Source of the DNA: a virus | Length of the DNA: 49,390 nt | IMG/VR virus record: IMGVR_UViG_3300046488_000055 | Location: 1-49,390 of that record | Reading direction: 5' to 3' (one strand) | Shown here: positions 2 to 5,018 of the stretch, in pieces | Layout of the letters: each line of letters opens with the position of its first letter | Position numbering within the stretch: position 1 is the first letter of the stretch | The notes under the pieces: model-generated | What the model was told of the DNA's origin: nothing | The model's input: the letters and a program-made list of their open reading frames with translations, nothing else | Databases searched by the model: none | Translations under genes and position numbers: made by a program

Positions 2-238
2 AAGATCACAGTACTAGCAGACCGTTCAGCTCCTCCACAGACTGCCTACGTGCTCACTATGAGCACACTTAAGTTGAGAAGTTTAGGCAAGGTGCCCCAC
101 ATACTCACTTACGGTATGGAGGGGTTAGAGGGATTACGTGTAGGAAATGCAGATGCTTTAGAGATCCGCATTGGCTATTATGGAAATCTCATATGTTCCG
201 CCCCCGGATGGAATATGGTAGTACAATTAAGCGCTTAG
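2..238 (+). CDS. C-terminal part of a gene entering from the left edge
   Basis: The frame is open from base 2 to a TAG at 238, so this is best read as the last 78 residues of a gene that starts outside the window, not as a small ORF beginning at the ATG at 50. I do not recognise the family. The visible tail is mixed in charge and ends in a hydrophobic stretch with an APGWN segment. A strong terminator follows 33 bp later, which is common after highly expressed phage genes such as the major capsid gene. Together with the virion genes that resume at 3.65 kb, this makes a structural protein plausible, but that is inference only. Confidence 0.5.
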   Translation, partial: KITVLADRSAPPQTAYVLTMSTLKLRSLGKVPHILTYGMEGLEGLRVGNADALEIRIGYYGNLICSAPGWNMVVQLSA

Positions 239-396: not shown

Positions 397-993
397 ATGA
401 TAATCTATAAAATAACAAACAAGCTTAACGGTAAACTATACATCGGACAAACAGTTCAAAAACTACATGATAGATGGAGTGACCACGCCCGCCCTTGCTT
501 AGGTAAAAATGTAAATAGGTCTGCGATAGGATCAGCTATTCGTTTATATGGAAAAGAGAATTTTACAATTGAACAGATTGACTCCGCAGAGACCTTAGAA
601 CAGCTTAATACCATGGAAATCACATACATAAAAGCTTTCAATACCTTAGCCCCAAACGGGTATAATCTTGAATTAGGTGGAGAGAGTAAAGCTTGTCATG
701 ACGATACGAAAGCGAAGATCAGCGCTACTCTCAAAGGCCGTCCTATTAAGAATCGCATGAATGGTGCGCCTAAAGGCCGTCCAGTATCAGCAGAACGTAG
801 AGCTCAAATTAGCGCTACTTTAACTGGTAAAGCGCAGCCTAGTAAATATAAAACCGTAGAGTGTTCTAATGGCGTTACTTACGAATCAGTTAACGCTGCA
901 GCTAAGGCTTTAAATGTAAATCGTGTAACTATATCATCTCTAATCAAATCTGGTAAAGTAGGACGTTTAGGATTTATTTTCAAGTTTAAATAA
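397..993 (+). CDS. GIY-YIG homing endonuclease with C-terminal DNA-binding repeats
   Basis: A 198-residue protein that probably nicks or cleaves DNA to drive its own homing. The N-terminus has the GIY-YIG core as IYKITN (residues 3-8) and LYIGQT (14-19), with an Arg in the following helix (DRW, 26-28) and a Glu in MEIT (73-76) in the catalytic positions. Residues about 105-150 hold two copies of a K-x-K/R-ISATLxG segment, the NUMOD3-type DNA-binding motif of phage homing enzymes. The C-terminal 50 residues (NAAAKALNV...) resemble a NUMOD1/HTH-like recognition module. It has its own promoter, stands alone between a terminator and the next promoter, and is not inside a recognisable intron. Confidence 0.9.
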   Translation: MIIYKITNKLNGKLYIGQTVQKLHDRWSDHARPCLGKNVNRSAIGSAIRLYGKENFTIEQIDSAETLEQLNTMEITYIKAFNTLAPNGYNLELGGESKACHDDTKAKISATLKGRPIKNRMNGAPKGRPVSAERRAQISATLTGKAQPSKYKTVECSNGVTYESVNAAAKALNVNRVTISSLIKSGKVGRLGFIFKFK

Positions 994-3058: not shown

Positions 3059-3087
3059 TTGCCTATAGTGAAGCTCTGAGATATCCT
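3059..3087 (+). promoter_or_regulatory. promoter embedded in the endonuclease VII leader
   Basis: TTGCCT (3059-3064), a 17-bp spacer and TATCCT (3082-3087) predict a start near 3094. The -10 box is part of the segment 3080-3089 that is complementary to the downstream ribosome-binding site. Transcripts from here would therefore lack the sequestering arm that read-through transcripts carry. Confidence 0.5.
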
Positions 3088-3182
3088 TAGACTTTCCTGT
3101 ATAGCAGGCTTAGAATGCGATATGGTGAGAAGCTCAACTAACAGTTTAGCTCAATTCTAAGCAAAAAACATAAGGATATCAT
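3080..3182 (+). promoter_or_regulatory. structured leader that can sequester a ribosome-binding site
   Basis: GATATCCTTA (3080-3089) is perfectly complementary to TAAGGATATC (3171-3180), which contains the AAGGA site of the following gene. The enclosed RNA can fold further: CTTAGAAT (3109-3116) with ATTCTAAG (3154-3161), inside it AGCT-c-AACT (3131-3139) with AGTT-t-AGCT (3143-3151), plus a small CCTG/CAGG hairpin (3096-3108). The result resembles a three-way junction closed by the RBS helix. No known riboswitch consensus was recognised. Confidence 0.65.
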
Positions 3183-3647
3183 CTGTTTAAGGCTTGTACT
3201 CGATGCCACATAGCTAAACCCCTCAGTGCTTATTACCCTAAACGTAATAGCTATACTACAGCCTGTAAAGACTGTCAGGATACTTATCGTTTAGCATATT
3301 ACGCTAAAAACCCAGATAAAAAAGAAGCTAAAAATAGAGTGAGTCAACTCAGCAAATATGGTATGACACCGGCTGACTATGATGCGCTCTATCTAGCTCA
3401 AACTGGTAAATGTAGGGGTTGCGAGAGACATCAATCTGAGTTTAAAAAACGATTATACGTAGATCATGACCATAATACAGGAGCGGTTCGAGGACTTTTA
3501 TGTCACAGCTGCAATGTAATATTAGGCGCGGCTCAAGATAATACAAAAACTCTAACAAATTTAATCAGTTATCTACAACCAAACTCTGGGTTAGCAGACC
3601 AATCTAACATAATCAGCTTTCGAGCTGTTAAGAAAGTAGTAGGGTAA
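3183..3647 (+). CDS. recombination endonuclease VII-like nuclease, CTG start
   Basis: A 154-residue nuclease of the T4 endonuclease VII (gp49) type, which resolves Holliday junctions and branched DNA before packaging. Residues 5-8 and 28-31 are two C-x2-C pairs (CTRC, CKDC) forming an N-terminal zinc knuckle that is common in phage members. The core follows with CRGC, then YVDHDHNTGAVRGLLCHSCN, which holds the catalytic Asp/His and the second Cys pair. The frame is open only back to a TAA at 3171. No ATG, GTG or TTG precedes the zinc knuckle; CTG at 3183 is 6 nt after AAGGA and is the likely start. A GTG at 3339 would remove the knuckle. Confidence 0.8.
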   Translation: MFKACTRCHIAKPLSAYYPKRNSYTTACKDCQDTYRLAYYAKNPDKKEAKNRVSQLSKYGMTPADYDALYLAQTGKCRGCERHQSEFKKRLYVDHDHNTGAVRGLLCHSCNVILGAAQDNTKTLTNLISYLQPNSGLADQSNIISFRAVKKVVG

Positions 3648-3651
3648 TTAT

Positions 3652-4332
3652 ATAGCAAATCGTAATTGGGCATCTGGCGGGAAAATATATTCAATGCATG
3701 TCAAGCCGGTCTTATTAGACTGTAACTTCGTAGTAGACTCAACAAATGGCAATGGACTAGGGATTCGTTCTCTAAAAGGTCCAGCAATTACAGCTGTATA
3801 TATGCACACAAGTGCAACTCCAGCAGCTGGTAATCCAAATCCAGCAGCTGGTACAATCGTAATTCAATTAGATGATAAGTATAATCGCTCATTTAGTGGT
3901 TTTAATGCTATTGTCTCTCCAGTAAGCGGATCATCTGTTAAAGTGGATAATTCTGCACTAACTCAAGGTCAAGCATATATCATCACTTCTCTTGGTGATG
4001 CTACTACCGCGCAATGGCACACACTTGGTGTACCAGCAGGCGTAACTCCAGCAGTTGGTGTAAGCTTTATTGCTGCTTCCGTAGGAGCAGGAGCGAATAG
4101 TTCTACTTCTAGAGTAATGACTTCCGCAGCAGCGGGATCTAATATTGCTTCAATCGAAACAGTTGGTGATCCTAATCTATCTTGTAACCCAGCTCCTAGC
4201 GCTAATAAAGGCGCTCAATTTATTCTTCAATGCCGCGATTACGCAGGCGCTCTTGCAGCTCCAGCTGCTGGATCAGTAATTAGTCTTTCATTTTACCTTA
4301 GCGATTCAAGTATCGTTATTCAAGGAGAATAA
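3652..4332 (+). CDS. virion structural protein, first of a tandem pair (possible ATA start)
   Basis: Paralogue of the next gene, with the shared segments LLDCNFVVDSTNGNGLGIRSLKGP near the N-terminus (split here as LLDCNFVVD and NGNGLGIRSLKGP), then GFNA-VSPVSG, a Y-I-x-TSLGDAT segment and GAQFILQC-DYAG near the end. The type is an abundant decoration or head-fibre-like protein; I cannot say which. The first ATG is at 3694, but homology to the paralogue (RNWASGGK here, RNWANGGK there) continues upstream to an ATA codon at 3652 that lies exactly where the paralogue has its ATG. Read from 3652 the protein is 226 residues, against 227 for the paralogue. AGGG at 3641-3644 is a possible ribosome-binding site. 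Confidence 0.75.
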   Translation: MANRNWASGGKIYSMHVKPVLLDCNFVVDSTNGNGLGIRSLKGPAITAVYMHTSATPAAGNPNPAAGTIVIQLDDKYNRSFSGFNAIVSPVSGSSVKVDNSALTQGQAYIITSLGDATTAQWHTLGVPAGVTPAVGVSFIAASVGAGANSSTSRVMTSAAAGSNIASIETVGDPNLSCNPAPSANKGAQFILQCRDYAGALAAPAAGSVISLSFYLSDSSIVIQGE

Positions 4333-4334
4333 TC

Positions 4335-5018
4335 ATGGCTAAAAGAAACTGGGCAAACGGGGGTAAGACTTACTCCACGCACACAGGCATGACTTTAGTT
4401 GATTGCAATTTCGTAGTTGATTCTACAAATGGTAATGGACTAGGCATTAGGTCTCTTAAAGGACCGACTGTTAAAAACGTATTCATGCATACGACAGCTA
4501 CACCAGCTAGAGGTAATCCAAATCCAGCAGGACCGACAGGTGGAGGTGTAATCGTTGTACAACTCGAAGACAATTACAACCGCTCTCTTTGTGGTTTTAA
4601 TGCAAATGTCGCTCCAGTAAGTGGAACAGCATTAAAAATCGACAACACAGCATTAACTCCTGGAGTAGCTTATATCGTCACCTCTCTTGGTGATGCTACA
4701 GCAGCTAAATGGACTGCAATGGGCGTACTTAATGGTACAACACCAGCAGTAGGCGTTAGCTTTATTGCAGCGTCTGATGGTGGAGCCGCTAATACTTCAA
4801 GTTCAAGAGTAATGGCGACAGCAGCCGCAGGTTCTGGTATCTGTAGAATTGAAACAGTAGGAGATCCTAATCTCTCTATTGCTCCAGATCCTACAAAGAA
4901 TCAAGGTTTTGGCGCTCAATTTATTCTACAGTGCAAAGATTATGCAGGAGCTAATACAGCTCCAGCTGATGGCACTGTAATCAGTCTAGCATTTTTATTA
5001 AACTCTAATAAAATCTAG
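4335..5018 (+). CDS. virion structural protein, second of a tandem pair
   Basis: A 227-residue, Gly/Ala/Thr/Ser-rich beta protein paralogous to the preceding gene over its full length. It starts at an ATG preceded by AAGGAGA. The middle holds an ITSLGDATAAKW segment and a GVSFIAASDG segment. Such ITSLG-type domains are frequent in virion proteins of marine-type phages. Its position just after the capsid end and before the adaptor gene suggests a capsid decoration or head-tail surface protein, but that is inference. A stable hairpin follows the stop. Confidence 0.75.
   Translation: MAKRNWANGGKTYSTHTGMTLVDCNFVVDSTNGNGLGIRSLKGPTVKNVFMHTTATPARGNPNPAGPTGGGVIVVQLEDNYNRSLCGFNANVAPVSGTALKIDNTALTPGVAYIVTSLGDATAAKWTAMGVLNGTTPAVGVSFIAASDGGAANTSSSRVMATAAAGSGICRIETVGDPNLSIAPDPTKNQGFGAQFILQCKDYAGANTAPADGTVISLAFLLNSNKI

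Follow-up and report, generated by a model that had tools for sequence, protein, structure and literature searches.

A conserved pseudoknotted leader RNA of a capsid-region gene in uncultured phages, probably captured by an endonuclease VII gene

In bacteriophage T4, the genes e, soc, 49, and I-TevI, together with other endonuclease genes, are controlled by sequestration of the Shine-Dalgarno sequence (PMC3014915, PMC2988022); the soc product is a capsid-associated protein and the gene 49 product is endonuclease VII (PMC2988022, PMC3014915). The free-standing homing endonuclease genes of T4 (seg, mob) reside beside phage genes and use existing phage expression signals (PMC2988022). Inspection of the T4 sequence identified a short hairpin (AATAAATACCCTTA...TAAGGGTTTATT) over the Shine-Dalgarno sequence of gene 49. 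Pseudoknots also occur in leaders of phage mRNAs: that of T4 and T2 gene 32 mediates autogenous repression by gp32, in which the protein spreads from the pseudoknot and no covarying Shine-Dalgarno stem of the kind described below is known to be involved. In the translational SAM/SAH, SAM-II, and preQ1 riboswitches, a compact pseudoknot likewise governs access to the Shine-Dalgarno sequence.

Here we analyzed a viral DNA of 49,390 nucleotides (IMG/VR record IMGVR_UViG_3300046488_000055, hereafter the window), for which a translational switch resembling that of T4 gene 49 had been proposed upstream of an endonuclease VII-like gene. The reading we favor, with a probability of about 0.8, is that this locus contains the pseudoknotted leader of a capsid-region gene, likely a translational repressor, which was captured by endonuclease VII. 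The elements of the leader are as follows (loci of relatives carry L numbers).

3077..3182, + strand: leader-RNA element, whole (match to covariance model R2, E = 8.3e-13, with the window included in R2; E = 3.2e-5 with model R1, built from L077/L079 only)
3075..3091, + strand: P0, competing local hairpin TCTGAG-ATATC-CTTAGA, with an extension to 3059-3107 (fold ensemble)
3080..3089, + strand: P1 5' arm, the anti-Shine-Dalgarno strand, GATATCCTTA; 10 bp with 3171-3180; covaries
3097..3102, + strand: P3 5' strand CUGUAU, pseudoknot, outside the model (family 0/20,000 permutations)
3108..3116, + strand: P2 5' strand, GCTTAGAAT (= GCUUAGAAU); 9 bp with 3154-3162; covaries
3120..3125, + strand: P3 3' strand AUAUGG
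3131..3151, + strand: P4 hairpin, at the family P4 position (from the fold; family P4 covaries)
3154..3162, + strand: P2 3' strand, ATTCTAAGC (= AUUCUAAGC); covaries with the 5' strand
3171..3180, + strand: P1 3' arm, TAAGGATATC; carries the Shine-Dalgarno UAAGGA 3171-3176

P1 is the outer stem of a conserved RNA. Its arms are perfectly complementary at the positions originally given for them, and the 3' arm, in which the ribosome-binding site had been placed, holds a full Shine-Dalgarno core that is covered by the stem. The further helices expected between the arms were recovered as the 9-bp P2 and the small hairpin P4, which is weak in the window. P3, formed in the window by six pairs of which two are G-U, crosses P2, and the unpaired motif GGUG (3124-3127) is invariant, occupying the same column in 32/32 members of the family described below. 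The element is thus a pseudoknotted RNA of ~105 nt rather than a simple hairpin. The fold of 3078-3182 has z = -3.2, with 0.8% of shuffles equally good, and z drops to about -0.9 or weaker for 3059-3200 or with added flanks. Because the flanks bring z down in this way, folding energy alone is weak evidence and covariation settles the structure; the nearest-neighbor calculation, furthermore, cannot score the pseudoknot. For flanks between 0 and 60 nt, the Shine-Dalgarno sequence is predicted to have a mean unpaired probability of 0.07-0.14 over the 32 members.

Covariation among homologous leaders had been suggested as a check of the pairing. Since relatives of the endonuclease VII are distant (sharing at most ~43% identity across most of the protein) and the R2 search of loci L002-L022 yielded no such leader, covariation was tested through the capsid-region gene, for which 80 further loci encoding it were taken and then another 80, partly overlapping. 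As MAFFT placed the arms out of register and RNAalifold therefore recovered no structure from its alignment of the leaders, a single-sequence model (two identical rows) followed by iteration was used in place of such an alignment. The initial covariance model, R1, was built on the single sequence L077 (L079, entered as the second row, has the same leader sequence), comprised P1, P2, and P4, and left the window out. In a search of 294 kb, R1 detected the window element and the leaders of 19 other relatives, all directly 5' of a start. The refined model R2 detects 32 distinct IMG/VR members, each adjoining a start, with the window among its training sequences and the few matches above E = 0.1 left uncounted. 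None of 29 control loci, among them the T4 gene 49 region, contained a match to R2. No match was obtained with Rfam 15 at the gathering threshold in the window or in 29 relatives, and an open-access literature search found no described phage leader of this kind. The window element thus appears to belong to a previously undescribed, apparently uncatalogued leader-RNA family of uncultured phages.

The arms of P1 change jointly, reading UCCUUA/UAAGGA in the window, UCCUCAG/CUGAGGA in L024, GATACTCTC/GAGAGTATC in L064, and GGATTCCCC/GGGGAATTC in L086. When 26 leaders were compared at fixed anchors, the strands of each sequence paired better with each other than strands dealt among the sequences, a result matched by none of 20,000 permutations for P1 and P2, by 18 for P3, and by 6 for P4; such covariation of the arms is what the proposed check called for. 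In the R2 alignment of 32 members, 91.0% of the cells are paired, compared with 64.6% after shuffling, and double-sided changes occupy 168 cells (46 shuffled) and are present in 20/22 pairs. The covariation score reaches 0.624, compared with 0.179 after shuffling and no more than 0.078 when slid. For P3, which is absent from the model, 0/20,000 permutations equaled the observed pairing and the score is 0.318, compared with 0.130. The caveats are that P1, P2, and P4 guided the alignment, that the window took part in training R2, and that the member sequences are related; most of these points are answered by the detection with R1, the slid controls, and the unfitted P3.

Elsewhere in the family (31 members), the leader runs up to the capsid-region start codon with no endonuclease between, and the capsid-region gene is flanked by an SU10-like gene for the major capsid protein and an adaptor gene of the SU10 type. 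L024, L041, and L047 carry the same element as the window directly 5' of ATGGC (GCTGGGATATCCTCAGCC...CACTGAGGATACCATGG in L047). Because of the gene behind it in these 31 members, we regard the element as the leader of the capsid-region gene. Of the gene 49-like switch initially envisaged, the sequestration of the Shine-Dalgarno sequence stands and the ownership by endonuclease VII does not. The window has the P1 (10 bp), P2 (9 bp), P3, and P4 of the family, but its leader is not directly before the capsid-region gene, which begins at 3652, behind the endonuclease VII gene. The genes concerned are listed below.

5..238, + strand: major capsid gene, C-terminal end, truncated at the start of the window (from tblastn to the L023 homologue)
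3183..3647, + strand: endonuclease VII gene (PF02945, E = 4e-25; putative CTG start)
3652..4332, + strand: capsid-region gene, the owner of the leader (AUA start by homology; listed as 3694 from the first ATG)
4335..5018, + strand: tandem paralogue of the capsid-region gene, with its own Shine-Dalgarno sequence and ATG
5074: SU10 adaptor gene

Relatives match SU10_MCP, and the gene order from the capsid gene onward is common to L023 and the window. The two tandem copies, 3652-4332 and 4335-5018, are 67% identical from codon 1, and their starts align as ATA GCA AAT CGT AAT TGG (3652) and ATG GCT AAA AGA AAC TGG (paralogue). The capsid-region protein matched no recognized family, and Foldseek on its structural model (pLDDT 83) gave no usable match, so its role is assigned from gene order; nine capsid-region proteins, when aligned, proved too divergent for use as a search query. 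A virion protein of 1006 aa is encoded in 31 IMG/VR loci and had no relative in genome contigs or in the phage collection; because both searches were empty, no cultured relative and no host were found. Just past the major capsid gene, the window has a strong terminator-like hairpin followed by a T run (270-296), and ~3 kb of accessory genes separate this hairpin from the leader.

The gene behind the window leader is indeed endonuclease VII-like, as had been predicted, and it also matches PHROG endonuclease VII families; its translation contains CTRC...CKDC, the putative N-terminal CxxC zinc ligands. The frame is closed upstream by TAA at 3171-3173 and has no ATG, GTG, or TTG before the first zinc-ligand cysteines. 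CTG 3183 is the sole NTG codon there, with the Shine-Dalgarno core 6 nt upstream. The leader ends at AT (3181-3182), the endonuclease VII frame then runs to 3647, and the capsid-region gene resumes behind it at ATAGCAAATCG without an ATG; in nearly all relatives, the leader adjoins the ATG of the capsid-region gene. A second lineage (L075, L076, and L078, identical over the stretch compared) has an endonuclease VII gene at the same site. Its protein is 43% identical to that of the window, its leader is partly different, and its capsid-region gene starts with the non-ATG codon ATC (about 2501 in L075). L080 carries the leader without an endonuclease, and ATC stands where the start codon is expected (179).

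This arrangement is most simply read as insertion of the endonuclease VII gene exactly at the start codon of the capsid-region gene, so that the ribosome-binding site and its RNA structure would have been captured. The reverse order, in which the leader arrived with the endonuclease, is very unlikely because 31 members have the leader without an endonuclease. With the endonuclease VII gene between leader and capsid-region gene, it is the first frame behind the leader. Such an insertion differs from the T4 seg and mob genes in being at the start codon itself, and landing on the start codon of an already controlled gene may offer a mobile endonuclease a route into translational control. A group I intron carrying endonuclease VII was rejected, as there is no Rfam intron match and the joined flanks give no ATG in the right frame. 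In three sequences, the first capsid-region copy has AUA or AUC in place of AUG, and two of them have endonuclease VII just upstream.

How the leader might work can be weighed against several alternatives. The original prediction followed the T4 scheme: P1 would close the long transcripts that read through early, and the short late ones, started at a promoter within the leader (TTGCCT-17 bp-TATCCT), would be open for want of the 5' arm. This is how T4 e, soc, 49, and I-TevI behave (PMC3014915, PMC2988022), the P1 arms covary, and the hairpin at 270-296 after the capsid gene suggests that the genes downstream may need their own promoter. The promoter sequence is present, but its 8/12 match is at chance level, sites of this grade occurring 3.9 times per kb per strand in the window. 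Averaged over the family, the promoter score reaches its maximum at this offset (6.3 of 12, z 3.7), mainly owing to -10-like letters, and the -35 is not significantly kept in relatives (z 1.8). The resemblance to a -10 is explained by pairing with the Shine-Dalgarno sequence, and in several members the hexamer is TGTCCT, which lacks the critical A of a -10; an upstream Gibbs search yielded no convincing shared promoter motif. Predicted folding does not yield a clean rule by which long transcripts are off and short ones on, contrary to what had been anticipated. In the long transcript, the hairpin 3059-3107 uses the upstream P1 arm and is predicted to be a close competitor of the sequestering stem. 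The predicted probability of P1 in the window ranges from near 0 to 0.99 depending on the ends chosen and is thus marginal, so the long form does not appear to be firmly closed. A conserved pseudoknot would, moreover, be superfluous for this kind of timing, which we consider unlikely.

A somewhat better candidate, although still rather improbable, is a fixed brake or RNA-stability element that imposes constant low translation or protects the mRNA without switching. It would fit the prediction that P1 is stable in 28/32 members without flanks, and the fact that several phages (window 4335, L064, L077, and L080) have, behind the first copy of the capsid-region gene, another that appears to be unregulated. 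However, the invariant unpaired motif and the conserved pseudoknot exceed the needs of a brake, and competing strands are present. A metabolite-sensing riboswitch could be considered inasmuch as small riboswitches (preQ1, SAM/SAH) are typically pseudoknotted, hide the Shine-Dalgarno sequence, and have invariant cores; nevertheless, only a virion gene or an inserted endonuclease was seen behind the leader and no Rfam riboswitch matched, so that we give this option little credence. Chance complementarity can be regarded as already refuted by the covariation in 32 sequences and the independent detection with R1, even though the fold energy is ordinary with flanks (z -0.9) and a stem of at least this length is found at the start of 0.8% of background genes.

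The most likely role of the leader is translational repression. Closed P1 would keep ribosomes off the Shine-Dalgarno sequence; the stem encloses a pseudoknot, in which P3 crosses P2, together with hairpin P4 and the invariant GGUG. Because the core is invariant and the pseudoknot conserved, we infer that a trans-acting factor, most likely a phage protein, reads the leader; our first guess would be feedback by a virion protein. Competition between P0 and P1 for the shared strand could be the moving part. P0 recurs in many members, with weak comparative support (24/20,000 permutations). In the window, endonuclease VII would be translated weakly, from a captured ribosome-binding site and a poor start codon. 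Taken as a whole, the family can be described as a conserved leader hiding the ribosome-binding site of the capsid-region gene, a description that appears well supported by comparative evidence as regards structure and sequestration; repression in vivo is a proposal. A more ambitious and tentative possibility, to which we attach less than even odds, is a new class of phage regulatory RNA, a pseudoknotted sensor that responds by strand exchange to a phage protein (capsid protein, free or assembled, would be one example). It would time translation of a capsid-associated protein, and mobile endonucleases would exploit it by insertion at the start codon, so taking over the controlled ribosome-binding site.

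Compared with the described systems, the window leader resembles T4 gene 49, e, soc, I-TevI, segB, and Aeh1 mobE in that an RNA stem hides the Shine-Dalgarno sequence. Those leaders, however, are simple local hairpins relieved by late promoters, whereas the window leader is a ~105-nt element with a pseudoknot and an invariant core, lacks a supported internal promoter, and has a capsid-region gene as its original owner. Relatedness to T4, which had been left as one option, is at odds with this architecture and with the silence of R2 in the T4 gene 49 region. By analogy, the window is expected to act like the T4 set at the ribosome-binding site, and it falls outside this set in architecture, ownership, and promoter. 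With gene 32, it shares a pseudoknotted phage mRNA leader before a structural or binding-protein gene, and a protein partner is known for gene 32 only. From the SAM/SAH, SAM-II, and preQ1 riboswitches, it differs in sequence, in the lack of an Rfam match, and in the virion gene behind it. The family thus carries Shine-Dalgarno sequestration beyond the simple hairpins of T4, to an RNA that combines a pseudoknot and an invariant core, and places a strongly supported leader RNA with no Rfam match before a virion gene of phages for which we found no cultured relative.

In more distant relatives, the capsid-region gene is preceded by other leaders, and H-type pseudoknots near the Shine-Dalgarno sequence are clear in several of them. 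Leaders that R2 does not match and that have apparent H-type pseudoknots are those of L037, L043, L044, L054, L045, L048, L101, L108, L135, and L136. The pseudoknot of L054 combines CCGCGTA/TACGCGG with ATAGGGG/CCCCTAT, and that of L135 combines CATTGCTAGA/TCTAGCAATG with ATTCCCTGA/TCAGGGAAT. As a set, the R2-unmatched leaders score 30.4, compared with 26.3 when shuffled, an excess that is only suggestive. If the leader is a sensor as proposed above, the differing pseudoknot leaders that precede this gene elsewhere in the phage group would represent the same sensor in diverged form.

Endonuclease genes of the GIY-YIG, HNH, and endonuclease VII types cluster around the major capsid gene and the gene that follows it in this phage group (window 397-993, L023 3100-3603, L034 4074-4484, L046 3477-3917, L062 1154-1516, and L068 3310-3699). 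In the window, a tandem repeat at 2559-2753 with 9- and 12-nt units (GGCAGCATACTC) encodes an Ala/Tyr/Ser-rich stretch in the ORF 2182-2778. In addition, an ice-binding-like domain (PF11999, E = 1e-24 to 1e-32) is inserted in frame after about residue 60 of the second of the tandem capsid-region copies in L064 (3225-4565), L077 (3186-4496), and L080 (862-2205), which suggests that this copy might be a surface-displayed decoration protein.
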